Shown one piece after another: positions 27,009 to 61,242 of a stretch of 64,000 nucleotides of DNA. The DNA comes from Phytoseiulus persimilis (taxonomy: Eukaryota; Arthropoda; Arachnida; Mesostigmata; Phytoseiidae): contig CM075102.1 of the NCBI GenBank assembly GCA_037576195.1, forward strand, positions 12,520,745 through 12,584,744, read 5' to 3'. Made by a program: the position numbers and the translations under genes. The notes beneath the pieces were generated by a model. The model was not told the origin of the DNA. It searched no databases and saw nothing but the letters and a program-made list of their open reading frames with translations. Every line of letters begins with the position of its first letter. The stretch's first letter is position 1.

Positions 27009-27722
27009 TTCACTGGCAGTCGCCACCGAGCTAACTCCGTTTCGTTTTCCCGCAACCTAAACCAGTCTCGTCCCAACTTCCTGCCTGCCTTCAATCATTG
27101 TTTTTGTCGTTCATAGATTCTCTCAGGTGCTTTCAAGGCTTGGCAAACTATCATGATACTTCAGCAACTCTCTCAGAATATGTGACCAATCCGTGAAGAA
27201 ATCGTTTGGATCCACAAAACCAGTTTAGTTTGCTCACCCTGTGTGCATTTCTTCCTTCCTTGTGGCGATAAGTGTGAGCGATCGAACGGTCGGAGATCGT
27301 CCATTTCCGGACGATGCTCATTCTCCGCAGGCTTCAATGTCGCATTTCATTCGGGCGCTTGGCTTCGGTGTCTCCGTAGGAGTCAGGGGATCAGGGACAG
27401 TGCATGACTCCGAACTCATCAGAGGAGGATCGTCATCCAGAGCCATAACATGCCCCGCGATGAGGAAATGCGCCGCAAACTCCGGGGAGTGCGAGCATCG
27501 TTAATCGGTTCCACCGAACTAAGAGCTGCACAATTCTCTGCGGGCTGGAGGTTGGGGTTATCAAATGCTGGGGTCGAAGGTCACAAAATATACGCATCAT
27601 TTCCTGATGCCGTTCGGATATTTTAATTGGTGACAACGAAGTCTGTCACTTTAACACTAGGCGGCGCTCATCTGGACAAGTCCAGAGCTTTCCGAGTTGT
27701 TGGGTGTCGCAAGAACAGCGCT
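27009..27722. other. spacer between PRPF39 and the tail-anchored ORF
   Basis: No coding signal recognised. It must contain the 5' UTR and promoter of the downstream unspliced gene, but no clear TATA box was seen; there is an AT-rich patch at 27618-27628. Confidence 0.4.
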
Positions 27723-29084
27723 ATGGTCGAAGCTTTTCCCACTCTCGATTTGAGTGGAAGAACAGGCTGCATCAGGGAAGTGAATCTTCCTCGAACCCTC
27801 AATCAAAGATTCATTCCATCTCCTTTCGTCACGATGTGGGTTCCCAGAATACCGCGGTCCCGCCACGAGGGTTCCGACGCATCAGACTCAAGGAACAGTC
27901 GACGCCGGGTCTCGGGCAGGGATGCTCGTGTAAGTCCAGCAAGTGTCCGGCACCTCAGCAACCCCGCGTGTCTTTCCGGCGGAGGAGTCCCCGCGGCATC
28001 GAATTCGAAAGTGAAGAAGAGCTCGAGGCGTAGTTCGACGTTTGTTGATTTTTTTTCCGACATCCCCGAAGTCGCTCGTCAGGAGAGTCTTTTCAAAAAG
28101 AGACGGCTGTCGAGCATGATAAAGCCGATTCGCAGCATATTCTCGGCACCGCAGTCCAGTGACGACAACAGGGCACACAGGATCAGGAAGTCCAAGTCTT
28201 CTGTGGGAGCGGATGAGGAGTCGAGAGTTAAGCAACCTTTCTTCGAGGACGCGGCGGAATACTCCGGCTCCTCCTATAGGCCGGTCTCTCAAATCCAGAA
28301 ATGGGACTCCTTGATTGACACTGCCCCGCTGGCTTCCAAGAACGGCAGCGAAGGAAGCTTCCGATCATCGAGGGACTTGCCCTATGAACGGGAAACGCTC
28401 TCCGAGTCGGAATATTTCGGAGCCGCAACCACATTCGAGTTATCTCCAGGAAGCCTCAAGCGCGGGACTCTTGAAACGGTCGAGAGCAAGACTCGCTTGG
28501 TAGCCGCTCCTGTTACCGCTAATCGGGATTCTGGGCACGAGAGGCAGCGAATTTACAGTGAAGAGCATCCAGGAGTCAGCAACGTCTTACTCACAACATC
28601 CGTTCTGGACTTCGATCAGCCAAGCGTCGGGCCCGTTCAAGAACAAGCCAGTGGCGATTTCGTAGAGAATACGCAGTTGTCGTTGCGCTCGTCATCGACT
28701 GTTTCAGCTAATCCAAACAGGGTTCCCAACGGAACGATGCAGAGGGTTGCTCGCTGGTTGAATAACAATCATCTCGGTCCGATGATGCCAGTAGATTCCG
28801 CTGTGGCTGCCGCAGATCCTCAGTCAACGGACCACGTGTCTAGTGGGCTCGCGCCGACTCCAACCCAGGATGCGGTGCCTGGTGAGCCAGCGAGCGGCGG
28901 GAATGTTCCTCGTGCTTCTCGAAATTCGGCATACGCGAACTCCGCAACGCAGACCGGCGCTGAAACCGTGACCGGAGCGGGCCCCCTCGTGGAGACTGTT
29001 GGCTTGGTTGCCGTTGCCGTTCTAATCTCCGCCTGCATTCATTATATTTCCCAGCTCCTACCAAGGAGCTTTGATCTTTTCTGA
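27723..29084 (+). CDS. uncharacterised Ser/Arg-rich protein with C-terminal membrane anchor
   Basis: The longest unbroken frame in the window: 453 residues from the first ATG to a TGA-equivalent stop. The frame is open back to a stop just before 27627, but without an earlier ATG; an ATG at 27834 is an alternative start. The first 420 residues are low in hydrophobics, rich in Ser, Arg, Pro and Glu, and contain several basic Ser clusters (for example KKSSRRSST and RKSKSSVG), so they are probably disordered and phosphorylated. The only strong hydrophobic segment lies 10-30 residues from the end (VGLVAVAVLISACIHYIS) and is followed by a short polar tail. That is the architecture of a tail-anchored protein facing the cytosol. 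No family is recognised. Being intronless in an intron-dense neighbourhood is unusual. An upstream coding exon is possible. Confidence 0.65.
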   Translation: MVEAFPTLDLSGRTGCIREVNLPRTLNQRFIPSPFVTMWVPRIPRSRHEGSDASDSRNSRRRVSGRDARVSPASVRHLSNPACLSGGGVPAASNSKVKKSSRRSSTFVDFFSDIPEVARQESLFKKRRLSSMIKPIRSIFSAPQSSDDNRAHRIRKSKSSVGADEESRVKQPFFEDAAEYSGSSYRPVSQIQKWDSLIDTAPLASKNGSEGSFRSSRDLPYERETLSESEYFGAATTFELSPGSLKRGTLETVESKTRLVAAPVTANRDSGHERQRIYSEEHPGVSNVLLTTSVLDFDQPSVGPVQEQASGDFVENTQLSLRSSSTVSANPNRVPNGTMQRVARWLNNNHLGPMMPVDSAVAAADPQSTDHVSSGLAPTPTQDAVPGEPASGGNVPRASRNSAYANSATQTGAETVTGAGPLVETVGLVAVAVLISACIHYISQLLPRSFDLF

Positions 29085-29548: not shown

Positions 29549-31357
29549 TCACGACGACTGCGTCATCTCTCTCAAAGCCGCTCCATGGAGCCAGTCGACC
29601 GGATAGCCTTTGATTTGTTCGATAATCTGCGGGATTCGATCGAATAAGTTCCCGGATGAACAATGATTCGATTCCATCAGAATCATACATTCACCTCCTG
29701 CATTTTGACTCACATGAAACCGAATCTTATCTCGCTGAACTCCATGAACGCCTAGAGCCAATGTCAAGAGTGAGATCTCGGCGCAGTACAGTTCTCCTCG
29801 GCGTTGGGGGTAGTCGCAGACTGTAGAGAAAAAACGCATCAGCACTTCACACGCAACACGCGAGGAAGTGAACAGAAATGCACCAACCGCGATTCCCGAG
29901 TGCCGTCAGAGCAAAGAGGTCCAAAGCTCTCTTGATCTTCATGAGCTCCCTTCCAATGCTGAATCCCTGCTCGTTGTGGACAAAATAGATATCCTTGACC
30001 CCTTCGGGAAGATCGAAGTCGGCGTAGTTGGTCATCAGGGAACCAGTGACACGGTAACAGTCCAAGAATGTTGGCTCCCGTTTTCCAGGATTGATTTTCA
30101 GTTGCCAGTTTCCATGTTCGAGTTCAAGCTTTGTATCTTCATGGAAACATGCATTAATCCATTTCCTGCGAGTCTTTGCACGTTGAAGTCGCAGCAAGGC
30201 TTCCCAGGACAAGGGGATCGCCTTAGTTGCGAAACAAACTTCCCCGTGCGGCGACTTCAACGGCTCCTTGCAATCTTTTGTGACATGAGCTTTGTGAAGG
30301 TTTTCTCGATCATATTCGACCAAAGCCACTGTGGGCATGGTTTTCTCGTTGGCGTTCAAAAGACTCACCAAACTCAGCCATTTTGAGAATGCTAGCAATC
30401 AAGAGCATATTTTCAACTCAAACAGGAATAGACATCATGTACCTATTTAGCTGACAATCTGCCTGGTACTCACTCCGAAACGGCGTCTTGACCCTGATCA
30501 CGGGCTCTGCACCTATCCTGAATGGGTATTTCCTGAGCAAGTTTCCGATGAGCGTTGGATCAGTCTCGTCGGAGGTATAAAATCTTATCGTAGTGCTCTC
30601 ATGGAAGGATCTCGGAATGGTTCTAAGAGCTTCCTGCAGAGCCTGTCTGGAGAATTCGGAATGGGAGGATTGAGCCACCTTTCCAATGAGACGCCTAAGG
30701 GTAGCTGGCTTCCCGCTGTTTCGGCCCTGAGGAGCCGTAGTTTATAATCTTCTCTCGGCGCCAGGGACCAATGGAATCACAGGAAAATTGTTCAAACAGA
30801 AGCTCGGCTCCTCGGAGCTTATTGTAGGGCTCCTCGGAATCTTTAAATCCATCCCAATCTCGGAACATGAAACCGCTTAGAAACGAGCTGGACCCGAGTT
30901 CTCAGAGCAAATGCGAGACGACTCCTCGAGTTTTCCGCTCAGATTCAGTGCGTCACCTGACGCAGCAATTTCGAGGAAAAACCGTCCACTTACTTGAGCT
31001 TACAAACATCATCTCCATTCACGCACCCCGCATCAGAGATATTTACGCTGGTGTATCCCGAAAGTCTTAACTTCTTCAAAGAATTGGAGAAGCTGAGTAA
31101 GAGAACTCTCAAGGGGGTCTCGATATCTTGCTTCGCAATCATAATTGCGTAGCATCTGTTGAGAAATGAAAGTTCAGTCTCTCCGGAGTCTCAATTCGGA
31201 TCGAACTGATAATTCGTCTCTTCCTGAATAACTTGCTTGTTGTGCTTTCCTCCACGAGAACGTATGGAGCCCAGAACCATGAATCCGATGACCAGTATTG
31301 CCGCGGTTGAGAGAACCAATAGATATAAGTGTTGATTGACCTCGTCGGAGCCCGATT
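29549..31357 (-). CDS. uncharacterised type II membrane protein, paralogue A (5' end unresolved)
   Basis: Reconstructed on the minus strand. Exons: 31357-31207 (transmembrane), 31155-30994, 30646-30474, 30328-29888, 29820-29714, 29626-29549. Phases 2, 2, 1, 1, 0 agree, giving about 369 residues to the TGA at 29549. The first exon holds one hydrophobic segment (LLVLSTAAILVIGFMVLGSI) followed by a basic stretch, so the rest is predicted lumenal or extracellular. The ectodomain has scattered Cys, a stretch FDLPEGVKDIYFVHNEQGF, a CAEISLL motif in exon 5 and ends near VDWLHGAAL. No ATG is in frame before the transmembrane segment, so a 5' exon is missing. It is homologous exon by exon to the gene at 35061-36880. 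Function is not recognised. Confidence 0.7.
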
Positions 31358-34300
31358 CTAGCTTCAATTATAAAATCGATTTGAGGATTGATACATAGCG
31401 AAATCGACCAAATTTTCTTTCTTAAATCCGCTCGAGCCACCTTGCTCTAAGACTTCCTTTCCGAGCTTCTCGCCCGCGACCAGGAGTTGAGAAGGCTTCT
31501 GCTCCGCTTCTACCATCTTTCTGCGAATAGTTCCAGTGTCAAGCTACTCGGATCTCGGAGCTCACGCTCCCGTCAATATCGTTGTCCTCTCGCAGCGAGG
31601 GAGGGTGAAGCAGCTCAGACTAAATCGCCTATTCGCTCCTGATCATCCAGCGACTGCGCTGAAAATAGGTGACGGCGCTCGGCGACCCGAGTGCTCTGAA
31701 CAGGAACAGTAATGGATGATGGCTGCCGGATAGGCTGCGCTTCCTACGCGCAACAATAACGAATCGTCTGTCGGGGCTCGGAGAACCAGAAGGGTGAACT
31801 CAAACATTTCGGAAACAAGTCAAGGGAATCAGATTAGCATGATCATGGCTCAATCTTTTCTAGTGTTCCTTCGAAACTGTCCCATCAATTGCATGAGATT
31901 GATACATTGCCGTAAGAGGGTGTTGTCAGCGAAATCAGAGGATTCATCGATTCCGAATCCGCTCGTCAGCCCTGGAGCACAGGGGCTCCGGTCTCGGAGG
32001 TGGCGGAAACGGCGTCGGGTCTAATGACACCCCGGGCGGGACTTACAGCTGCCCAAGCGCGACACGCTCCTTTCAACGACCCCGCGGACTCCTGCGGAGA
32101 ATACTGGTCGCCAAGAATGGTTCTCACATTGACCCATCGGACCAGGCCCGGGTATTCCGAGCCTGATCTTCCTACAGGGAGCGGAATCCGGGAGCGATAA
32201 ATAACTTCGGAGTCTTTCACTCACGAAAATTGAATCGCGCGGTGTCAATTGCAGTCATGGAACCGACTATTACGAAGCAAGGTCTCAAGACCTTCGGTCG
32301 CACCGAACTCGGACATCACAGCGGATCTACAGTCGAGGCTTTCGAATGACCGTTAAATTGTGAACATTCACTGAGGGTGTCAACGGTGAACCTCCGTTTT
32401 GGAGCGCAGATATGCTCTGAGAAGTTTTAAGAAGCTCCCGGCTCTCCTTGCCACGCTAACCGACGAATGAATAGGACATTGAGAGCCACCCGGACGTTGT
32501 TAAAGCCACGAGTCACACCTCTCAGAAGGGAACGTAGTCCGAAAGAGTTTCTGGTTTCAGAAACCCCCCTCCCCTTGAATTTACCAGTTTCGATGATATG
32601 GTGACACCCTTTCCAGTCTTCACGCCGGGGAGGCATACTGTCGCGTTGTTTCCTTCCATCCCCTCATCACGTACATGAGAGGAGACTCTCCAATGGGAGA
32701 GCGCCTGTTGCAGGAGTGACATCGCAGACGGCTCCATCCAGTTGAGAAAAAGACGGTTCTCCAAATCTCGTTTACAGATTGGCCCTGGAGCTCAAAGCGT
32801 GGATCGAATTCGAGCATTCCGAGCTGTGGAATGTCGCTCCCTCAATCTCTGATTCTGGACCCGTTTTGACAGCAGAGGTGCGAGAAATCTTCCAGGTGGA
32901 TTTGACACTCACTTCTTTCATCAGATTGGTTTCGCATCCCAAAAGTCATTCATCCTCTTCTGGAAGAGAACTGCCGAAGCCCGCTTGGGGCCCCGAGGCT
33001 CCCATATGGGAGCATCTTTTGGATGTTTATGTCTGATGGCACTGCTGTATCAGATCACTACCATGAACCATGAATCGCGTCTCCAAACTCCAGTGGTCTG
33101 CGTCACCTCTGCTGCGGGGGGAAACCTTCCATTCAAGACCGAGATCGCCCCGAGACACGAGCTCCGAAAATCTTTTTGGAAGATCCATGTGGTACCAGGT
33201 ACTTCATACGCGGGAAGAATGCGAGAGCATCCTGAATAAGATGTTGGGGTCTTTTCCAAAACTGGTATCCGGGTATCAGTGGCGTATCTGAATCAAGCGG
33301 CGCCCGGGGCAAAAGGACGAGAATGCGCCTTCCCCCCCCTCCTTTGAGCCGGCACGGGAATTCGGTGAGCCATCGCACGAGATTCTTCTCGTTGGAAACA
33401 AAGTCATGCTCACGCAATGTTACCACGATACAATGATGATCTGAATCGTTCTCGTTGAGCCCTGACTGCGGCGAGATTTTCTATCATTTAACAGCGCCAA
33501 AGTCCGTTTTTTTCCTTTTCGTCTCTCAATGCTTGAAAGTGCTAATCTCCTACTCGCTGGAAGATCTCTCTCAGCTGGCCGCCGTAACGGCGATGGTAGG
33601 AATCTACGTGGCGACAACCAGGTCCAGAAACACGCTCTCATCATCGTATTGGATGATGAGGCTGAGGATTCCCACTGAAATCGCCATACGCGCATGCTCA
33701 CTGGCAGGGGCCAACATTTCACAGTCATTCATCACTTCACGGAGTTTCTCCCATAGATTGAACCGGAACTCTGATTCTGCGCCCCTCCCTCAGCCCTCTG
33801 GTGCATGTGTCTGTGTCTGAGAAGAGGCGAGTCTTCACTGCAGTCGAAGACATTTATAGAACTTCATCTCTTCCGCGCCCTTCAGCTTTGCGCCCCCAAG
33901 TCCTCTAGGGCGAGGAACCAATGCAGAAACGGCAATAGATGAAGTTCAAATCCGACATAGCGCCCCTCAGATCTCTGCGGCGTTTATCCGTTTGGAAGCT
34001 GAATCAAGTTGATCCTGCGGTTACGGCTACGGGGGAGAAATCAACTACGGTTTTACGAACCGTAACTGCGTGCCCTTTCAGTTTTGCGCCCACTTACTGA
34101 GCGCCCAGTAGTCTTCGGTCCCCGGTCTTCGCTGAGTTTCAACGCGGTGAAATTTTGATGTTACCCATTGACACCTGCGCTTCCTGTAGTATGTTTCCCA
34201 CCAGGTTCGATCTGATCAAGAGAGCTCGGTTCATGAGTTTGTGGGACGGACAGTTTTTCGATACTGCTCCACAATATTGTGTAGAAATTCCTATGTAGGA

Positions 34301-34500
34301 ATCTGATGCGTTCCGACTCGAGAGCTGATTTCGACTCGCGAATGCTCCGATCAGACCAACGACATGAGGCCGTAATGTGTCCGTGTCCTAGCAACTATGG
34401 TGTTACGTATCGCTGAGGAAAGAGTTTTCGATTCAAAACCGCCGAAGATGATCGCTCGGAAGACAGTGAGCCCCTCGCTAAGATGGAAAGTTCGGTGAAA
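31358..34500. other. region between paralogues, no firm gene
   Basis: About 3.1 kb without a gene I can support. It presumably contains the missing 5' exon and promoter of paralogue A. At 33277-33315 a CAGTGGCGTA... start followed by a GCGCCCGGGGCAAAA-like run resembles a DNA-transposon terminus. GCGCCC-rich patches recur at 33870-34110, but no matching inverted end was found. There is a C-run at 33330-33338. Confidence 0.4.
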
Positions 34501-34829
34501 TGAGCCAGAAATCACGGATGCTCGGAACTGAGCTATGTTAGTAAAGCGGAGTTGGAATCCTGCGGTAATCATCCTCGTGTCATCTTCCGGGTCCCGCGTT
34601 GTTCGGGAAACCGATCCAAAATCAATCACCAGCTCTAAAGCGAGACAGGCCTGTCCCTACTCACGGCGGAACGATTTGGTACAGCACAGAAATAATGAAC
34701 GGAGCCACTGCCATGGAGACCACTGCCACAGCCTCCGCCGAGTTCGCCGGAAGCCTGCTGGGCTCATAATCCGGGATACCGAGACTTACATTTGACGCAG
34801 AAATATTCGAAAACGACGTTGCTATGCTA
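34379..34829 (-). pseudogene. possible remnant of a third paralogue (transmembrane exon plus following exon)
   Basis: On the minus strand, an AG acceptor after a T-run precedes 34829. An open segment to about 34664 carries one hydrophobic helix (VAVVSMAVAPFIISVLYQI) and ends at a gtgagt donor in phase 2, the same phase as after the transmembrane exon in paralogues A and B. A good acceptor about 195 bases on (tttccatcttag) opens in phase 2 into a segment with FRAIIFGG, which loosely resembles FFVVIFGN of paralogue B exon 2. The remaining exons were not found, so this is either a decayed copy or coincidence. Confidence 0.25.
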
Positions 34830-35060
34830 AAAAAACACACACTTTACTCCGAAGGATCGTCTCCCTCTTCCGACAGTGCTTGCAAAACCATATAAGCATT
34901 AAGAGAAGAAAATAACCATTTGAACCGAAGATCGAGGAGTCTCGCTTCCATTATATGAAGCTCCTCGTGCACGTAAATCCATAGGTTTCCCTCTCGTGGC
35001 CGGGTGTGCTCCCCTTCACTCAGGAGAGCATGCGCTGCCCAATCCACTGGCGAGCATGCC

Positions 35061-36880
35061 TCAGATTTTTTGCCAGATTTCTGACCACGCAAGTCCGTGA
35101 ACCCAATTGATTTTCCGGTGCTCAAAGTCCTGAATAAGCTTCAAAGAGTGATTCCGGTGAGAAGATTCGTTCCCAAATCCGAGCCGAGGAAGGATCCGGT
35201 CAGGTTAGCGAGGACTGAATCTACATTGCATGGTACATGGAAGTTTGCGGCGGTTAGACTCACTCGCAATTTGATTGGCCTTTTCCAGAAGTTCAAAACG
35301 TAGTACAGGAATGAGAATTCAGCGCAGAGCGCTTCTTTGTCGCATGAGGCGGCGCGACACGCTGCGAATGGGCAAAGGAACTATCAGAATCCGCGGAATT
35401 CTATTCTGCTTCAGGTCCTGATCACACGTCAGCCCTCAAGGAGTTTGGATAAGGGCCGGAGCGAGCTAAGATGAACCGGGACAAACCGACCTGCAAGAGC
35501 CGCTTTCTCGAAAGTCTCCTGAGTATGGCTCCAGCCTTCCTCTCCCAGTTTCGATATTGCGCGGAAACCTTTCTCTCGTTGGATGAGATACGTCGTCTCG
35601 ATGTGCGTTGGGAGGTCGAATTCGTTTAGCATCTTTTCCGAGAGCAGGGTCTTGGTGAATGTGTGGCACCTCGTGAACGTATGCCACCCATTAACGGGCT
35701 CGGCTTCGGATTCGCAACGGGAGCATTTCCGGAGCCAGGTTTTGAAACGTTCCGGAAATCCTGAGAGCAAGTTCGCGAGATTGAGCGGTTCCGACTTGGC
35801 GAACATGCAGAGCAGCTTGTACGGAGAGGGGCGATTGGCAGTCCACGCGAGTCCTTCGATGCACTCAGGGCCGACGGGAAGCATTCTCCTATGTGCCAAA
35901 TGCATGTTTATGCCATCGAAGTCGATCACGGATACTTCCTGTGTAGACTTTTCCTCCCATTTGAGAAAAACCGCCGCGCCAAGCCATGTGAAGAACGCTG
36001 TTGATTTCGTGGAGAATCTCGCAGAGAATAGCAGCTTGAGTCAAGAACCCAAGGGTTCCGGAAATCCGAAGAGGAATGATTCTCGACCAACCTTTATCTC
36101 CTTCGTACAACCGTGACACCGGTTGCCTCGCCGACTGGAAGCGGGAATCAGTCAACAATCGCTGGATATTTTTCAACAGACGCGAATCGGTCCGCTGGTA
36201 AGTAACGAACTTCGCAATCGTGTCTCGGTGTCTGCGCTTGGGTATCAGCGTATAGGCTTTCTCCAACAGTGGCCTAGAACGAGGCATTCATTGCAAGTTC
36301 AGGCCTCATTTCAAAGTTCGAGAACCGCCCATCGCGCTCGGCTCGCGTGGAAAGCACAGGCAATTACCTGAGTTTCTCAGACTCTCCTGGATTCTCCAGT
36401 CTTGTTGTGTTGATACGAGCCTCAATTGTCTTGTCGACGGAGGAATTCCCAAGCGACGTGTTCCCGAAAATCACGACAAAGAAGCACGGTAGACAGTCAT
36501 CGTCCTCCCTCGCGATCACCACCGCATATTCTCTGTAGAAGTAAAAATATGGTTCGCTTCCAGTCGGATGGAGTGGAGCGAGAATCGATCGATGCAACTC
36601 ACTCTGTTGCTGGAGCTTCGGGGGTGATCATCCAGAGCACGAAGGCACCGAATGATGTAACTGCCAAGCCGACGACCAGCGCACAACAGGCTACGCGCGA
36701 AGCTCGAGGCCTGGCACTCTGCGAAGCAGCGAATGAGTCTCCTCCGAATTCAGAGGAATCGAGAACCTGGAGACTGTCTTGCAGAGCTCCGTTCGTATGC
36801 GACTCGATATCGGGCTCGCTGAGTTCTGAGTTTTCCATATTCGTCCCCACAACTGCACCGACAGGAGCTTCGTCCAACAT
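35061..36880 (-). CDS. uncharacterised type II membrane protein, paralogue B
   Basis: Complete on the minus strand. Exons: 36880-36603, 36532-36368, 36273-36092, 35934-35491, 35361-35264, 35129-35061. Phases 2, 2, 1, 1, 0 agree; 1236 nt, 411 residues. An acidic N-terminus of about 62 residues is followed by one transmembrane helix (residues about 63-85, CCALVVGLAVTSFGAFVLW) and a Cys-containing ectodomain. N-glycosylation sequons occur in exon 2 (NTS, NSS, NTT). Exon 4 contains FDLPTHIETTYLIQREKGF, matching paralogue A's FDLPEGVKDIYFVHNEQGF. Exon 5 has CAEFSFL and exon 6 has INWVHGLAW, matching CAEISLL and VDWLHGAAL of A. The start is the ATG at 36880, an open exon with no acceptor needed. 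The exon 3/4 junction is the weakest: donor aaag/gttggt, acceptor ggaag/TATCC, chosen because the spliced junction aligns with A without gaps. Function is not recognised. Confidence 0.75.
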
Positions 36881-38527: not shown

Positions 38528-39142
38528 TTACTTTATCACGATATCTGGAGTTTTCGGATATAGCTTCAGTGTGACGTGTTGCTCTACCTCATCTTCACAG
38601 ATGGTGCTGTCGACTTCTTTCTCCAAAGTACCTGTCCTCGACTCTTTCTCTTTAGCGTTCTCCTTGTTATCGGCGATTCTCACAACCCTGATCATCACAT
38701 CGTCATTCCGTTTCTCCACGGGCGCTCTTACGAGTATCCTCGAATCTGTGAGTTGCGCTTGAAGTTTTTCGAGGGCAAACCCTTGGGGGACTTTGAAGCT
38801 CTTCTTGATCTCTCGCAGAGAGTATCCGTCTTCTAATGGTACTTCTTTCCTGGCAAGTACTGTAACTTCACGGTTCTTCAAAGTCACAGAAACATCTTCG
38901 GGTGCAAATCGCTCCGGAACAGTGAGAAGCTCGCAGAGCACCTGAACTTCGTCTGTGCGCTGCTGTGGATGCGGCGCTGCTGATCTTGGACCGGAACTCA
39001 TAAAAATTTCCTCAAACACACGTTGGCTCCGTTGAGGGTCAACATTAACGCAGCAGTTCCGAGACCGGAGCTCGTCTTCCATCCGCTGGATGTGTTTCTC
39101 GAACCACGATTTCATGTCGTTCTGACAACACTCTTCGAACAT
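38528..39142 (-). CDS. small heat-shock protein (alpha-crystallin domain)
   Basis: Single-exon minus-strand gene, 204 residues from the ATG at 39142. It is an ATP-independent chaperone that binds unfolding proteins. The alpha-crystallin domain spans about residues 65-145: a VLCELLTVPERFAPEDVSV start, a VTLKNREVTVLARKE beta4-beta5 pair, SFKVPQGFALEKLQAQLTD, and the late strand with SRILVRAP where many family members have an L-x-I/V-like hairpin. The N-terminal region has paired Cys and charged helices. The C-terminal extension of about 55 residues is acidic and longer than in most small HSPs. Lack of introns is common for heat-inducible genes. Upstream (about 39200-39215) is a TTTTAA patch; no clean heat-shock element array was seen. 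Confidence 0.92.
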   Translation of the reverse strand: MFEECCQNDMKSWFEKHIQRMEDELRSRNCCVNVDPQRSQRVFEEIFMSSGPRSAAPHPQQRTDEVQVLCELLTVPERFAPEDVSVTLKNREVTVLARKEVPLEDGYSLREIKKSFKVPQGFALEKLQAQLTDSRILVRAPVEKRNDDVMIRVVRIADNKENAKEKESRTGTLEKEVDSTICEDEVEQHVTLKLYPKTPDIVIK

Positions 39143-41591
39143 CTCGTCGGTGTCCAGGCAACTCGCAGGACTCAGCAGCTTTGAGAGGCTCTCCTCTGAG
39201 CGCTTCGCTTAAAAGAGTTCGAGTCGCGCGAGCATGAGTCAGAGACCCTACGACGACCAGATGGTGACATCACGTGTGGGCAACACCGCATTTACTGCAT
39301 TCCGATGTTCGTGTGTCACTTCAGCGATGTCTGTTTTCCAAGGAATTTCCTCCATTGTTGTTTCCTTCCATTGAATTCAACAGAAACGGAGCCTCCCGAG
39401 TCGAGGTCTAATCCGATTCGACGAGTCTCAGTTGTGAGACTGTGCTGGAGGAATCTTCGGAGTGCAAAATAAGTACAACAAAGAGTATTGTTTGAAAAGT
39501 CTCGTGGAACGAGCTCAATGCAAAATTAACCGTCACGTTCAAGCCACCGGAAACGGAGTGAAGGTTCCTCAACGGCATGGCGGAAATCCTCGTGGCGCTT
39601 CAGGCTGATCTGATTTGTCAACTTGACAAAGTGACGAGATGCTTGGAGGGAAGTTCGACAGATGCGGTGTACGCGAGAAAAAGAATCTGCGAATTCGAAA
39701 GCTGCCAGTAAGCCTCTCATGCAGAAAAAGCTGTGATCTTAGACGATATCCAGTGCTGAGGCATAAACTCAGTGTTCTGGAGAGCATTTCTTCGGAGAGG
39801 CCGCGAGACGGAACCGTCAACGGCCCGGCATGATTCGCGGTAAGAGTCACGCTTTCTGGGCTCTCTCCGAACATGTGGCAATCATCGAACTCGATTGTTT
39901 GCTACTGATCCCGTCGCGGACCCAAGTGCCACGAACACGTTAGGGAATTCCAGGGTCTCGAGTCACCAGCTCTGCTCGAACGACAAGAACAGCCACCTCG
40001 CTGTCGCTTATTCCAGCTGAAAAGAATGTAGAGCCGCAATCGAGCCCAGAGTTGCATTGTGAAAACTCTCCCACAGTCCGGGATTGGATCAGGAGGGGGG
40101 CAGCAAAGTTTGAGCTAGGCCCCGGCACATGACCGCTCCTGGATGTTGCCGACAGGCTGGATGATTTCAATAACTTCTCGAGATTGAATCGCCGTCTACA
40201 TTTCGGGCTCGTGCCTTCGGCCAGTTTATTCGTCGAGAGCTGGGAGGCCCCTCACGACCGCCAGAACTGGAGCTCCTTCATCTCTACATTCCAGCGTTAA
40301 CGCGGCGAAGTGTGACCGGTGAGGAATAGAGGGCGAACGCCACCGGGACTCCGCGGATTCAGGGAATGGTCACCTCGCCAAGTTCCGTCTTCCCGGAGCG
40401 ACATTCGGAGCTGGGGAGGAAAAGCCCAACGATCGACGTCAACATCGCGGAACCCCAGGTCCGCTCTCTGCGGATATTCCCTGAGACGCCTGTCGCTGGC
40501 CAGATTTTGGCCTTCCTTATTAAAAGCTGCTCCCTCACATGCGGGAATCTCTCTGTGTCTTCAGAGAAAGCGGAGCTCTTCAGGGCAAGTCTCGCTAACT
40601 AGGACAATTTGATGGTAGTGTTTCGAATTTTTCTTCAGGTTATGAAATAGAGAGGGAGAAGCATGAAGAGACTGCTTGCCGTCTAAGAGGAGCGAAATAG
40701 GGAGGCTGGATCCGAATGCGTGTTCCTTCATTATATCCGGGAGAGAAATGTTCGAATAGATAAATGAAAACACCTGCATGTTATCGTGGCCAGGGCACTC
40801 AAACGGATGCAGGTTCCAACTCATCAACGGATAATCAGTCAGAAGAGATCATTTCTGGGTTGCCACGAAATATGAACGGATGCCCGAGGTTCAACGATTA
40901 CCTTGTCTCTATATTGTTAGAGGTTTTGCTTCGATTGATGTCGATCTCTGCCCGTTGAGAACAATGATCGATCAACGTCGCGAGACCTCAGTATCGGTTC
41001 CAGGCTCATCGATCTCATTTTCAACCTCGTCTTCAGACATAAACGTCTCATCATCATCGCTTTCGTTCTTTTGCGTTCGACAAGGTTCGGCAAGCTTTCC
41101 CTCCTGAAGCTTGTTGGGGGTACGTGTAATCCCTCGATCCAACGGCTGTATTCTCGATCATGTCTTTGGTGGGAGAGAAAGGATTCAAATTCAGGTGAGA
41201 TCAAGATCTAAATCATGACACCTGGAACTATCCGAGGGTAGGATCATCCGACACTTCTTCTCCCTAAAGTTCTTATCATATTCCAGGAGCCATTCGCAAA
41301 GGATGGGAGCTGTCGCGGATTTAAAGTCAGAGGGAACAATGGCGTCAAATGTATAGGATAGCGAAGGTTTCCGAGTTACGGGATGAAGTTAACTCTACTC
41401 ATACAATACAAGTCTCCGAGGCAATCGTGGGATCGGATCTGAGTTCTAAGTCATGGAAGGTTTTCAAGTCAGTGATGCCCAAGTCGGCGAGACTCCACCG
41501 TAATTCGATTATGCGACAGTGTTCCGCTCTCAGGGAGCCACCGGAAATCGGATCCATCACCGCTTCTCGCCTCATGGGCTAAGTCGTCGGC
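39143..41591. other. spacer, no firm gene
   Basis: About 2.4 kb of short open frames on both strands without motifs. It holds the promoter side of the small heat-shock protein gene. Nothing else is supported. Confidence 0.4.
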
Positions 41592-45078: not shown

Positions 45079-46878
45079 ATGACCAAGCAAGTTGTCCTGC
45101 TAGCGGTTCTCTTCGCCGAGGTGTTCAGCTTTCCAGGACAAACGAACGGTACGTGAGGCGCACGATTCTTTCCGATGCCGATGATCCGACCCTTCAAGTC
45201 TTTTTGATGAAGTTTCGTGTCCGCAGAGGCATGTTTCGGGGAACTGGGATGTATTCCACTGAAAGACTGCCCCAAGAGGCCCTTGAATCCAAGACCGGAT
45301 CCTCGTGAAGCCATCAACACGCAGTTTCTGTTCTATTCCCGAGAGTCTCCTGAAGAAGTACCGAAAGTGCCGGGTTACAGGATCAAACCCGATGTCCTGC
45401 GCAAAACAAAGTTCAGTCCCACGAGACGTACTATGGTGAGACACGGTGTTGCATTCTATGTGCGAATACGTGGCGCGAGCATTCCTAGTGACTTTGAACG
45501 CTGGGTTCAGGTCGTCGTGCACGGTTGGATCGACAACGTGTTCCTTGGGAGATGGATGAACGAACTCAAGGACGCTCTCCTTCGCAAAGGCGACTTCAAC
45601 GTCATCCTCGTCGACTGGAGCGGCGGGAATGGTTTGCCGTACACGCAAGCCTCTGTGAACACTCGACTCGTCGGTGCTGAAATCGGGCTTCTTATCAAGA
45701 AGTTGGGGGTAAAGAAGCTGAACCACTCCGAAAACATCTGATCTTCCCCTGTCCTGTCACCTCCTATCCGCTCTCTTCCTTAGGAAACCTTCGGCATCTC
45801 TCCCTGCAGCGTGCACGCCTACGGTCACAGTCTCGGAGGACACGTTGTCGGCTATGCTGGCAAGTGGCTCAATGGTACTCTCGGTAGGATAACGGGTAAG
45901 TGGCGCTTCGGGGATCTAGCCATTCGTCCGATCTCAGATGATTGAAAACAGCTTCGCCCGATTCTCCCAGCTCTGGATCCGGCTGAGCCTCTCTTCGAGT
46001 TCTGCCCGCCGAACGCGCGTCTCACGAAGACCGACGCACAGTTTGTGGAAGTTATTCACACGGACTCGACCTCATTCGTGCCCCGATTAGGCCTTGGAAT
46101 GGATCTGGCAGTGGGTGACGTGGACTTCTATCCCAACGGTGGCAAACAGATGCCAGGCTGCGACATGAAGGGTCGTTTCGTGGAACTGAGGGATAAAAAC
46201 ATCTTCGATGGCGTGCGGGTTGTCGTTGGGTGCAACCACATGCGCGCCATAGACTACACGCGCGCTTTCCTCGACAACTCGGCCAGGAACTCAACTTGCC
46301 TTCCGATCGCATTCGCCTGTCGGGACTACGACATTTTCGAGGGCGGATACTGCTCCGACTGTGGGCTCGACGGATCACGCTGCGCAGTGATGACGTTGGA
46401 CGGGGCGGAGTATGCCCAAAAACTGAGAGGGAAATCCGACGGTACAGTTCGGATGTACTTCAAAACGGGACCTCGCCCGCCGTTCTGCTTATACCATTAC
46501 AGCATCGAGATGAAACTCCTCAGGAGCGTCAAAAACAAGAATGTCAAATCGGTCGCGGGAAGTTTATCTGTTGTCTTCAACGTGGTGAATGGAAAGACCT
46601 TCAAGTTTGACTTGAAGCACCGGAGGTTCGTTCCCCAGTTGTCATTGCTGTTGGTTGTTGCTCCACGATGCGGGTCACGTAACGTTTCTCTTTGCAGCAG
46701 CGGAGATGACTTCACCCCCGGCGCAACATATCGATACTTGATCACATCCGAAGCGCCGATCGAGCACGTCGAGTCGATAACATTCAGCTATTCGAATAAG
46801 AGATGGTTTCTCGCTCCAAAACTCTATTTGAAATCCATGAAATTCATCCCCATGACAACGACGACTTCGAGAATGTGA
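45079..46878 (+). CDS. secreted pancreatic-lipase-family triacylglycerol lipase
   Basis: A secreted alpha/beta hydrolase of neutral or phospholipids. Exons: 45079-45148, 45227-45708, 45784-45895, 45971-46625, 46698-46878; phases 1, 0, 1, 2 agree; 499 residues. Exon 1 is a signal peptide (MTKQVVLLAVLFAEVFSF). The N-terminal ECFG..GC.P-like start (EACFGELGCIPL), the oxyanion strand VVVHGWIDN and VILVDWSGG are typical. The catalytic triad is visible: Ser about 200 in GHSLGG, Asp about 224 in ALDPAEP, and His about 311 in GCNHMRA. Two Cys flank the lid region (PGCDMKG to VGCNH). The C-terminal 160 residues fit a PLAT-like domain. The last intron (72 bp) has good GT and AG sites but is also fully open, so a retained form 24 residues longer is possible. 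It is convergent with the UCH gene. Confidence 0.94.
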
Positions 46879-56169: not shown

Positions 56170-58640
56170 TCTAGCGAATAATCATGATATTCAGTCCCGC
56201 AGGAAGTCCTGGACTCGACTCCTGGCTCCTACATTGAAAAGTCCTGCGCCCAACTCTCTGATCTGATTTCGATTGCATCTGGGACCGTTTCATTCCATGT
56301 GTTGTTGCGAATCGCGAGTGTTTTCCCGGGAAATAATCTGTCAAATAGCGAACATGGGTTCTTTCACGATTCGAGAGGAGCATCCCCGAGCTTTCTACAC
56401 GCTGACTCGGTTGGAAGCGTCAGCAGGCTTTCGTTTTTACGCCCGGCCGAATGAACTTGTGCGTCCGCGATCCATTGGATACTCGACAGAATTGACGTCA
56501 CCGTCTGTATGGATTCTCCTCGCTCACGCGTGTCAGATTCTCTCCACTTCTCCATTCCACGCTTCCACCGCCAATCGACCACTTTTGCTTAGTTGCTGTA
56601 GCCAAGAAACGCTGCAGTTTAACGATAGAACAGCCGAAGGAATTTGCGTGCCAATCACTGGGTGAAATGCCGGTCACGCGTGTTCCTAACGCGTGACTCC
56701 CGCTCCGAAGCTAGCTTGGTTATCCGAACTTGTTATTCTCACTGGGTCCGAATATGCATTCGGAGGAGTCCTCTGGGGTTTGCTCGATCTCGCATTGGAA
56801 GGTTATATTCCGCTGTCTCTGGATAGTTTTGAAGAAGTCGTGTCTCGTCCGATGGCTCCTACCCGGTATTTTCCTGATGACGGTGCTCAAAGAGGTGAGA
56901 CGATGCATCCAACATGTTCTTTCTTAGAGATGGAAACTCCGGGGGGTCAGGAATCAACGGCTGTTTGCTCGCCCGTTGGCGGTCACGAAGGATGTATAAC
57001 CAAGAGACGCACTGTGGTGAGCAGCATCAATGCATAAAAATGGCGATAAACGCGATTCCTATGAACTTGAGGAATGCGCTCCGGAAAACTCTATGGAAGA
57101 TTCGCGCAGGTGGACAACATCGTGAGAAAAACTTGGCTAGAGAACAATGGAACCGCATCGACGGGTAGATACAAGCCTGCCAAAGTGCATCTTGCATTGA
57201 CTCTCAGCAAACAGATTATCCTTGATAGTCGAGACGAAAATTACACTTCCCCGGGCAGTGCGGGACGCTTCGACCCGAGGCATCAAACTCTGAATATATC
57301 CCTCAGACTGTTCTGCGGCTTCCCAAGCGCTATTATTCGGACTGAGTCAGAGATCAGAGGTGACTCCTGAACGTCCGGTGGAGAGAACTGCGGGGAGAAA
57401 CGCGTTTCAACGTCCCAGGAAAACAGTATTTTTTCGGACTAAAACTCCATCCGAAATTCCCTGGGCTGATGACGGCTCCAAACATTGTAATAAAAGAGGC
57501 CACTCAGTGCCCACCACGTCCCATGTCGTTCGCCTAACGGTTCGAATGCGAATTTACACGATCAAGTCTGGTTCTTCTATGCTGCGCAGCCCCCCCTCCT
57601 CCTCGCCAACTGGGTGCGTGACGAATTATCGGAAGTTTTTCGAGTGCTAACTCCCCTGTCATCTTCCTCTACTTGAGAATCTCTTCCCTTGATGTCCAAA
57701 TCCGTGACACTCGGCGAGCCGTGATACGCACTCCTGAACAGCGAGAACCTGGGAACGATGCGGTCTTGGAGATGACCGAGTTCAAAATTATAACGATGCT
57801 TCGAATCAGTATCTGAGAATTCCTAGCTAGGCTGGAGCTTGCCTCGCGCGGATCATAAGCTCTCCCAGCCAGCCATCTCCAGAAGAAGCGACTCTGCTTC
57901 GTAAGGACGGCCCAGTTATCCCTTTCCACCGGACTTGAGCTCGGTCTACCCGACGCATACGTCTCCGCCAGAGAACACTCTGCGGTACGGCCTCGACTTA
58001 CGTCGATTTGTGTCGAGTCGAATCATCAACGACGACTTCACCTTCTGTGAAGATTTTTTCTCGCTTCAACATGAAGTTTTCGCGTTCCGGAATCCTTCTC
58101 CTATCTCCGCGGGTCCAGCACCGGTATCGAAGGTTTCTTCGGATTCTCAGAGTGGCAGCTATCATGTCTGCCGCTGCTTTCCAATTCTGAATGTTTCCGA
58201 GCATTAGTGACTGAATTAAAACAAATCCGAACCAGTCTTAAGAGCCAAGCCCACCGCCCGCAATGGGATTTGCGAGGCGATAGGGAGTGTTACTGAAGCA
58301 ATACCGAAAGGTGATCCCGGGACACTTCTGAGGGCTGGCTGAGACGTTTAGCCGGAAAACAAAGAGCATGAGTGACTGAAGGACACAATTCTCCAGTGAA
58401 GGGCCAGAATGAAGAATTGTTCCTTCAAGAGGGTTTTAAAATGTCCTGATCTCGATGGAGGTAATCCTCGTTCCGGAGACTCGCCATTTCGTTTGGCGAT
58501 GCATCAGCATATGCTCCATGGACGGATGCCACGACTGTGTCCTAGCGTTGTGAGGGAAGATGAGCATTTTTCCTGAAAGTTTACACGTGGTTTGGCCCTG
58601 TTTATTCCTTGCTGAACTCCGTGTTCCTCCTCTCAAACAG
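56170..58640. other. spacer upstream of the ABC transporter, 5' exon of it expected here
   Basis: About 2.5 kb. Unassigned + strand open segments occur at 56693-56890 (hydrophobic; ends at a gtgaga donor) and 57074-57370. At 58071-58190 a frame begins MKFSRSGILLLS and includes RRFLRILRV before an AGA/gtggca donor. That resembles the RFLQILKV-type N-terminal elbow of ABCD4 and is the best candidate for the missing first exon, but it is unproven. Confidence 0.35.
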
Positions 58641-61242
58641 GTCATGGCTTACCAGGTCGGCATCCTAACAGCGAAATTCTACCCTGTGCTAGCCAAACAA
58701 CAGCAGGGGGAATTCTTTGAGCTGTTGATAAGCGCTACCGGTATCGTCACCGTCATGGCCCTGGTGATCTCGCTTCTGAGTTATATCGTGACAGCAACCA
58801 GCATCGTATGGAGGAAGGCGTTCACGAGTGAAATCCATAAGAGATACTTCGATGCGGACAACTTCTACAAGGTGATCCAAAGACTTGCAGCCGACGAGCA
58901 CACCAGTTGACCTATGCGCATAAATCGAGATCAATGTGTCGCGTCTTCCTAATGTTGTCCTTGGTTCATTGTACAGTCCCTCAGAACGTCATCTTCGACA
59001 CAAGAATAACCGAAACGAATATTCTCAGGTAAACTGTGTTGAAATCGTCACCAATCCGGATCAGCGAATCACGCAAGACATAAAAGAGTTCTGTGAAAAC
59101 TTCTGCGAAGCGGTGCCGCCTCTACTGATCTCGCCATTCCTCATTCTGTACGATATTGCTCGTTTCCCTCAAAATCGAAAGTGAAAAGCAAATACGGAGC
59201 TCAAACCTGCGGTTCTCTCTCCCAGGTACTATTCTCATCAGTCAGTGACCATCACCGGAAGCTATTTGAGTCCCGTAATCGTTTTGGTCTTCGCGATTAT
59301 GTGTAGCGTGTTGAATAAAGTAAGTTTCAGAGAAGCGATGTCTCAGGCGGTAAATCTCAGCACTTGAACGAGATACGAACCATCGTCAGGTATTCATGGC
59401 ACCGATAGTTGACAAGCTCTGCGAAAATCAGCGAAGAGAAGGAGCGTTCCGGAAGCAGCACTTGGAAGTGGCAACGAATGCTGAAAACATCGCTTTCATA
59501 CGACACGCTGATAGAGCGGAACTCAGGCAGTCGGAGAAACTTCTCAGTGAGCTGATCCATGTGAGAATCGAACTCCAAAGAGACCGCGTTTTCGTTTTTC
59601 TCTGTATCTCCCCATGCTTCGCGATTTCGTTGAGTTCGATAGAGCGTTGGAAATCTCGAAGAGTGTCGACTTCGTATCGACGCGATCGCTCTCTGGTGCT
59701 TGGTCCAATGATTCCTGGAGCTTGGAGGATCCTTTCCCTCGTATAGAGCGGAATGATTTATCAATCATTCGGACTTCAGGCTCAACACGCGGTTGCCATC
59801 CGGAACTTATTGCTCAATCTTGCGCTGAATTGGTCGAGTTATTTCTATGCGATTCTCGCTTTCATTATCGTTGCCATCCCGATATTCGCCGGAGTTTACC
59901 AGGATGTGAAACCAGCCGATCTCTCTGGCATCATTTCTAAAAACACTTTCATCACGATGTACCTCTCCAGTGCCTTCACCAATCTCCTGAACGTTGCGCA
60001 GAAACTTGTGAGTACAGGCATCGCGGGAAACGTTGATTATCAACGCAGGACAGGCCAGCTAACTTGGTATCGGATGATTCAGGTTGCAGTCGAGGCAATG
60101 GTGAGACGTGTCACGATACTCATGGACTCCTTTGATGAATGCGACTTGTCCATTCCGCATGAAGGCAAAGGAGCACCGGTTTTCAAGTTGAGCAATGTGT
60201 CCATAGAGGCTCCATCAGGTACGGCATTCCATACCTCGAAAAGGTTTTCGAGATCCCGGGAATTCGTCTGCATTCGGAAGCATTCAAACTCTATTCCTTT
60301 CTCCCAGGGATGAAATTGGTGGAGCACCTGTCCATGGAAATATCGAGCGCTCGGAACATTCTGATTACCGGCCCGAGCAGCGTGGGCAAGACGTCTCTAT
60401 TCCGAGTCCTGCGCGGTTTCTGGAAGCCTTCCTCGGGCACCGTTTCGTTCGGAGGTGGGAGATTAAAAGTTGGAAATCATCAAAAGTCTATTAGTTGGAA
60501 CCTCGTAGGAATGAGGTTGCACCGTCAACAGGATAAGTAGCTCCTTCCGCACATTCATAGGGGACGGAGATCTCATCGTTTTCGTCACTCCAAGAACGTT
60601 CATCGGGAGTGGTTGTGGCACACTGCGACAAGCTGTCACGTATCCCTTCGATGCTAGCGTTGCATCCGAGGAAGAGGTCGGGCCTAGAATATTTACCATC
60701 TTTGCACGTTTCGCGGATTCTCGACTGATTTCGGACTCCCGATTCAATTTATCGTCTTCGCCGTCATTCAGCGTCCATCTAACTCTTGATCACAGATTCT
60801 CGACTGCCTCGACGTTCTCAACTTGACACATCTGCTGCACATAAACCGCGACCTGGACGCTCCGATGCCCGAGAGCACCGTTGACGCGCTTTCCCCGGGC
60901 GAAAAGCAGAGGCTCGTCCTCTGTAGGATTTTGGTGAAGAAACCCAGGTTCGATCTTCGGTATCAATGAGGAATTTTCGGAAAAATCATCCCGAAGCAAG
61001 TCCTGAAAGCTGATCGAAGGCAGGGCCGTAGAATGACTCTTCTCTCTTCCAGCTTGGCGCTCATCGACGAAGCATTCAATTCCCTGGATCGAGCCGTGGT
61101 CGGAGAGTTCTTCAAGAGATGCAAATCACAGAAAACGGCGCTGGTTACAATATCCCATCAAGTTGATAACCTCTCGGCCTTCCACAGTGAGCTCCTCACG
61201 CTCGAGCACGGGGGTACCTGGCGCCTGGCGTCACTCCTATGA
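58641..61242 (+). CDS. Abcd4: ABC transporter subfamily D member 4 (lysosomal cobalamin exporter type), 5' end missing
   Basis: A half-transporter, one transmembrane domain plus one ATPase domain, that exports vitamin B12 from lysosomes with LMBD1 in vertebrates. Exons: 58641-58871, 59029-59180, 59226-59319, 59390-59560, 59747-60218, 60308-60454, 60561-60676, 60796-60947, 61053-61242. Phases agree; 574 residues from the first exon found (human 606). The membrane part includes NPDQRITQDIKEFC (the EAA-like NPDQR loop of ABCD proteins) and IIVAIPIFAGVYQD. The ATPase has Walker A GPSSVGKTS, signature LSPGEKQR (as in human ABCD4), Walker B LALIDEA and H-loop VTISHQ. The Q-loop region reads VTPRTFIGSG and lacks the usual Gln. 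About 40 N-terminal residues lie in an unresolved upstream exon. Confidence 0.92.

Follow-up and report, generated by a model that had tools for sequence, protein, structure and literature searches.

Degenerate Apyrase Domains in a Tandem Pair of Membrane-Anchored Proteins and a Third Genomic Copy, Candidate Pseudoenzymes of the GDA1/CD39 Family

The window analyzed here, a 64-kb stretch of DNA (C2:12520745-12584744), carries two tandem genes, A and B, whose predicted products, together with that of a third gene (C) on another contig, almost certainly descend from the GDA1/CD39 (apyrase/NTPDase) family. This descent is supported by a profile search, by a profile-profile comparison with controls and by an intron plan common to canonical genes of the same genome. 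Judging by their motifs, the three proteins very probably lack apyrase catalysis, and the best overall explanation, which we consider moderately likely, is that they form an old pseudoenzyme family that has been retained. The initial annotation had recognized no known domain in A and B and had considered a lineage-specific family; the ectodomain is instead a degenerate GDA1/CD39 domain, and A and B have relatives elsewhere in the genome, namely C and five canonical loci.

Gene Structure and Predicted Proteins

After splicing, the frames of A and B were open, and the intron phases were 2,2,1,1,0 in each gene. The spliced model of B encodes 432 amino acids from ATG to stop, and that of A encodes 390 amino acids counted from the first modelled exon to the stop. 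BLASTP comparison of the spliced products gave 96.3 bits with an E-value of 3e-26, which places the likeness of A and B far above chance, with 105 of 392 positions identical (27%). These results confirmed the homologous tandem pair with an identical exon-phase plan, as well as its low sequence identity, as initially proposed. An unspliced tblastn search of the window with A also picked up exon 4 of B (7.7e-11). The exon lengths first given (162/165, 173/182, 107/98, and 78/69) were reproduced, except for the pair of 441/444, modelled here as 504/507 bp. Inspection of exon 4 in both genes showed that, counted from the same acceptors, base 441 or 444 is not followed by GT; the donors of the 504/507 pair are GTTGGT and GTCGGT, and the donor GTTCGT is used in the canonical gene L017 too.

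The weak point of the models is exon 1 of A, which is a provisional 5' end: its donor (GTTCGA) is weak, and the acceptor list of the window holds no good acceptor for it nearby. Seven candidate first exons were found upstream, and the one with the best donor (GTAAGT, phase 1), running from an ATG at 32137 to 32047 on the minus strand, is possibly the true first exon of A. The anchor exon of canonical L017 is likewise devoid of an ATG from the preceding stop to the anchor.

Hydropathy analysis revealed one strong N-terminal hydrophobic segment in each protein, with Kyte-Doolittle 19-residue means of 2.61 (A) and 2.32 (B), and a single additional borderline segment in B (1.3). The one N-terminal membrane helix per protein described earlier was therefore upheld, and so were the cysteine-containing, sequon-bearing ectodomains of A and B. 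A strong single N-terminal helix was found in A, B, C and L017, and the first exons of B and C both contain MLDE. The three-way alignment of A, B and C showed six invariant cysteines. AlphaFold2 modelling of exon 4 of A alone, with B as second row, reached a pLDDT of 42.5, too low for a usable model to set beside the two-lobed, RNase H-like (ASKHA) fold of NTPDase enzymes.

Table 1. Coordinates and characteristics of the loci and modelled exons. Positions are those of the window, except for the two canonical genes, which are given by contig.
Feature	Coordinates	Strand	Length (bp)	Characteristics
Locus A	29549-31357	-
A exon 1 (as modelled)	31207-31357	-		Membrane anchor LYLLVLSTAAILVIGFMVL; no in-frame ATG, weak splice signals
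A exon 2	30994-31155	-	162	ACR1 relic, CYAIMIAKQDIETPLRV versus YAIMFDAGSTGSRM in canonical L017
A exon 3	30474-30646	-	173	LQEALRTIPRSFHESTTI segment; lacks ACR2 core TAGLR
A exon 4	29888-30391	-	504	ACR3 relic RTFSKW for EGxYxW; ACR4 relic EYDRENLHKAH for DLGGGSVQMAY; Cys-containing
A exon 5	29714-29820	-	107	VCDYPQRRGELYCAEISLL; matches canonical LC.DLTYIYALL region
A exon 6	29549-29626	-	78	IIEQIKGYPVDWLHGAAL, then stop; counterpart is VVRTIHGTDVSWTLGAAL of L018
Locus B	35061-36880	-
B exon 1	36603-36880	-	278	MLDE... cytoplasmic tail and membrane anchor
B exon 2	36368-36532	-	165	EYAVVIAREDDDCLPC, ACR1 relic; three sequons
B exon 3	36092-36273	-	182	LLEKAYTLIPKRRHRDT; lacks ACR2 core
B exon 4	35491-35997	-	507	FFTWL, ACR3 relic; VIDFDGINMHLAH, ACR4 relic; Cys-containing
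B exon 5	35264-35361	-	98	SCDKEALCAEFSFLYYVL
B exon 6	35061-35129	-	69	INWVHGLAWSEI, then stop; counterpart is canonical SWALGAAL
L017	C3:21654500-21660000			Canonical GDA1/CD39 gene; PF01150 8.3e-61
L018	C3:21672000-21677500			Canonical GDA1/CD39 gene; PF01150 5e-55

Relationship to the GDA1/CD39 Family

Annotation based on Pfam would assign A, B and C to no family, since Pfam is blind to them: none of the three had a match above cut-off, PF01150 included, with the same library that recognizes L017 and L018. A Pfam match to Tat (E 0.002-0.007; 17-19 bits, below the cut-off of 22.5) was taken as chance. The NCBIfam search gave nothing above cut-off for A or B, and no apyrase was returned when the PDB was searched with A or B as a single sequence. 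With a two-row profile of A and B, the apyrase 5u7p ranked first in the PDB at 0.01, followed by a lipocalin at 0.6 that was gone once C had been added to the profile. On this apyrase lead alone, three other candidate origins (M13 neprilysin, GH18 chitinase-like and glycosyltransferase) were set aside. As the profile had ranked an apyrase first, canonical GDA1/CD39 genes and further relatives were sought in the genome (181 Mb, 127 contigs).

The search with PF01150 gave 13 exon-level matches, grouped by position into five loci, none of which lies inside the window. Two of these canonical loci, L017 and L018, lie on the same contig at a distance of about 17 kb and have a common intron plan; for the remaining three (L019, L020, and L021), splicing gave crude models of poor quality, and these loci were left out of the intron comparison, the profile and the tree. 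Besides the exons of A itself, the genome search with A hit B (4.5e-4) and one further place, on contig C3 (0.003), which corresponds to C. With B as query, A (6.8e-4) and a weak match on C3 (0.07) came up in addition to the exons of B, and with C as query, A (0.0098) in addition to those of C. The genome therefore holds at least three copies of the family, A, B and C, the counts from these searches being lower bounds.

Gene C (L016) sits on C3, another contig than the one carrying A and B (C2), and was modelled from the tblastn match with A (E 0.003; reverse search 0.0098) and from the gene plan. Its frame is open, with phases 2,2,1,1,0, and its first exon encodes MLDE and a strong anchor, followed by YAVIIRVEQVAELFVYSF, PALLEAREVIPEEMRKLTPLKLYAKPM, GTLSWISL and a C-terminal HGAAI. 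The spliced score of C with A was 199, higher than in nine shuffled runs on another stretch (105-151), and the score with B was 116, within the shuffled range. A candidate fourth copy at C3:31341440 (C3:31338500-31344500), where the C-terminal part of B matched at E 0.07, was dropped because its spliced scores with A (106), B (148) and C (107) fell inside the range of the same nine runs.

When the ectodomains of A, B and C were combined into a profile containing no apyrase, 2 of 177,635 PDB sequences matched at E<=10, and both were plant apyrases of solved structure, 5u7p and 5u7x (3.9e-4 and 5e-4). Comparison of this profile with one of L017, L018, 5u7p and 5u7x by hhalign gave a Prob of 96.5, an E-value of 8.8e-10 and a score of 75, as compared to a maximum Prob of 1.39 and a maximum score of 23.1 in 100 column shuffles and a Prob of 0.16 for the reversed alignment. 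As single rows against the canonical profile, A and B reached Prob values of 88.8 and 89.0, respectively, and C just 43.6. The alignment of A, B and C with L017 and L018 was detectable over the whole domain. A and B trace to GDA1/CD39 alike, and not to two different known families.

For the comparison of gene plans, the introns of A, B, C, L017 and L018 were placed on a protein alignment built without intron information. Two introns coincide in all five genes, one of phase 2 (column 61) and the first of phase 1 (column 130). The second phase-1 intron is located at column 369 (A, C, and L018) or 352 (B and L017), beside a gapped stretch, and the phase-0 intron at column 408 (A, L017, and L018), 411 (B) or 412 (C), so that the canonical genes and A, B and C have phases 2,1,1,0 inside the domain at identical or nearly identical columns. 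Another phase-2 intron lies right before the domain, between it and the anchor exon, in A, B, C and L017; in L018, an acceptor before the domain was spotted by eye, and an anchor exon was not found. All four introns compared between A and L018 fall at exactly the same columns, an agreement that by rough reasoning would be very unlikely if introns were distributed evenly and independently among some 1,020 sites. Common descent, that of the intron plan included, is thus established at the level of sequence, and it was the intron plan and the three-row profile that recovered the origin of A, B and C.

Lost and Retained Motifs

Destruction has reached ACR1, ACR4 and the core of ACR2 in all three proteins; the Glu of ACR3 is R/K/D, the Gln of ACR4 has become His, and the presumed ACR5 (columns 202-212) is replaced too. 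By contrast, L017 and L018 contain DAGSTGSR, TAGLR, the ACR3 Glu and DLGGGSxQ, none of which is present in A, B or C. Scattered letters of the motifs persist: A still has the Arg of ACR1, B the Asp of ACR4 and one Gly, and C the Gly of ACR3. The four canonical rows agree throughout in 71 columns, of which A keeps 19, B 21 and C 19, and 11 are kept in all three. These 11 comprise L, A, P and T in the segment that precedes the core of ACR2, the Trp of ACR3, and L, R, G, C, G and A further on; none of them belongs to the ACR1, ACR2-core or ACR4 motif. A source on plant apyrases describes the ACRs as forming the active site (PMC8004787), and the plant apyrases 5u7p and 5u7x, which the profile of A, B and C matches, differ from these proteins as enzymes with the ACRs in place (PMC8004787). 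Nucleotide binding by A, B and C is possible in view of the scattered motif letters, that is, the ACR3 Trp in all three, the ACR1 Arg in A and the ACR4 Asp in B.

Interpretation and Alternatives

The retained pseudoenzyme family would have started from a GDA1/CD39 gene with an N-terminal anchor, which in this genome would also survive as the canonical L017 and L018; we take the canonical and ancestral genes to be ENTPD5/6-like. The phosphate-binding and catalytic motifs ACR1-4 were destroyed while the gene plan, the anchor and the cysteines were retained, and the proteins would have remained under constraint once these motifs were gone. Tethered by the helix, the dead domain would face the lumen of the secretory pathway or the cell exterior. 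It could not split nucleotides and would act through binding; its most likely role would be that of a non-catalytic partner or regulator, either of the active luminal nucleotidases or of a client of glycosylation. We put forward such a binding function within the secretory pathway tentatively, with slightly less than even confidence. If A, B and C are indeed retained dead NTPDases, a non-catalytic secretory-pathway role for the apyrase fold is suggested.

ENTPD5 and ENTPD6 are luminal, NDP-preferring NTPDases, for which one account gives a preference for UDP/GDP and roles in glycosylation (PMC12890697). They are secretory-pathway nucleotidases of the GDA1/CD39 family, to which A and B trace as well, and differ from A and B in the catalytic motifs, which are missing from A and B, and in the membrane anchor, as the same account gives ENTPD5 no transmembrane domain and ENTPD6 two (PMC12890697), whereas A and B have one N-terminal helix each. 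A precedent for an inactive GDA1/CD39 product is mt-PCPH, a truncated ENTPD5 oncoprotein described as having undetectable NTPDase activity and activity-independent effects (PMC3829800). According to another description, mt-PCPH originated by a single-base deletion that truncated one gene (PMC4090452), unlike A, B and C, which are separate, full-domain and old paralogues. Among the matches listed in searches of the open-licence literature, none described a natural family of NTPDase pseudoenzymes. To our knowledge, inactivity in the NTPDase family is known solely from the truncated oncoprotein.

The single N-terminal anchor, the sequons and the several cysteines would also suit binding proteins exposed at the cell surface or shed from it, which would take a nucleotide, nucleotide-sugar or protein ligand and serve as decoy or receptor with no Golgi role. 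ENTPD5 and ENTPD6 are reportedly released as soluble forms too (PMC12890697), which agrees with this possibility; however, the phosphate-binding letters are gone, and we regard a surface or shed protein as unlikely.

The seven-way alignment contains 17 columns that are invariant in A, B and C yet absent from all four canonical rows, including the columns of Asp (158), His (164), Cys (195) and His (425), and two of these are in the old ACR4 region. Letters common to the three proteins might create a new site for a metal or a substrate, making them enzymes or sensors with a new chemistry, and the substitutions of Asp for Gly and His for Gln at the old ACR4, and of His for Leu in the C-terminal WxLGAA, could be read in this way. 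Nevertheless, the pattern comes from three sequences, the ACR4 alignment is short enough for a one-residue slip to be conceivable, and C is unlike A and B around the candidate residues, so that a re-tooled active site appears quite unlikely. The more specific proposal, in which chemistry was lost once, the scaffold was kept in three genes and the re-tooled pocket became a new luminal enzyme or sensor on the apyrase frame, would be highly unlikely.

The destruction of ACR1-4, the lack of a start codon in the anchor exon of A and the weak splice signals of its exon 1 would be expected of apyrase pseudogenes in decay. A and B are 29.6% identical over 314 codons and match at 9 of 36 fourfold sites (9.4 expected), and B and C are 21.8% identical over 307 codons, with 6 of 24 (6.0 expected); A and C are 28.3% identical over 315 codons, with 15 of 34 (8.6 expected), and hence not clearly saturated. 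No internal stop was found in the spliced models of A, B and C. Identity at such distance, together with the open frames, the conserved phases and the six invariant cysteines, speaks for selection acting on the proteins. In the seven-row tree, A, B and C grouped at 100/100, with a long-branch warning attached, and since they form one group on these long branches, a single catalytic loss preceding the duplications would be the simplest history. Decay is thus confronted with three open copies of equal phases, with about 30% identity between A and B where fourfold sites agree at chance level, with the invariant cysteines, and with a single clade in which the loss seems to predate the split; its probability is very small. 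Most likely the three are functional genes and not relics, with B and C ranking above A. That A, B and C are instead an unrelated lineage-specific family resembling apyrases by chance, as the empty Pfam result above cut-off (with Tat, below it, as the sole listed name) and the apyrase-free single-sequence PDB searches might suggest, has a negligible probability given that both PDB matches of the three-row profile are apyrases, that the hhalign result lies far over 100 shuffles and that the intron plan is common to the canonical genes.

Other Open Frames of the Window

An open frame of 485 amino acids at 27627-29084 on the plus strand ends in a hydrophobic tail, is possibly tail-anchored and had no Pfam match at E 0.1. 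On the minus strand, an HSP20-like open frame at 38531-39208 had a score equal to the Pfam cut-off (20.8 bits). Two open frames at 45211-46875 on the plus strand matched the pancreatic-type lipase family PF00151 (2.7e-17 and 1.1e-38), and another at 58554-58907, also on the plus strand, matched ABC_membrane_2, an ABC transporter membrane region (6.7e-10).
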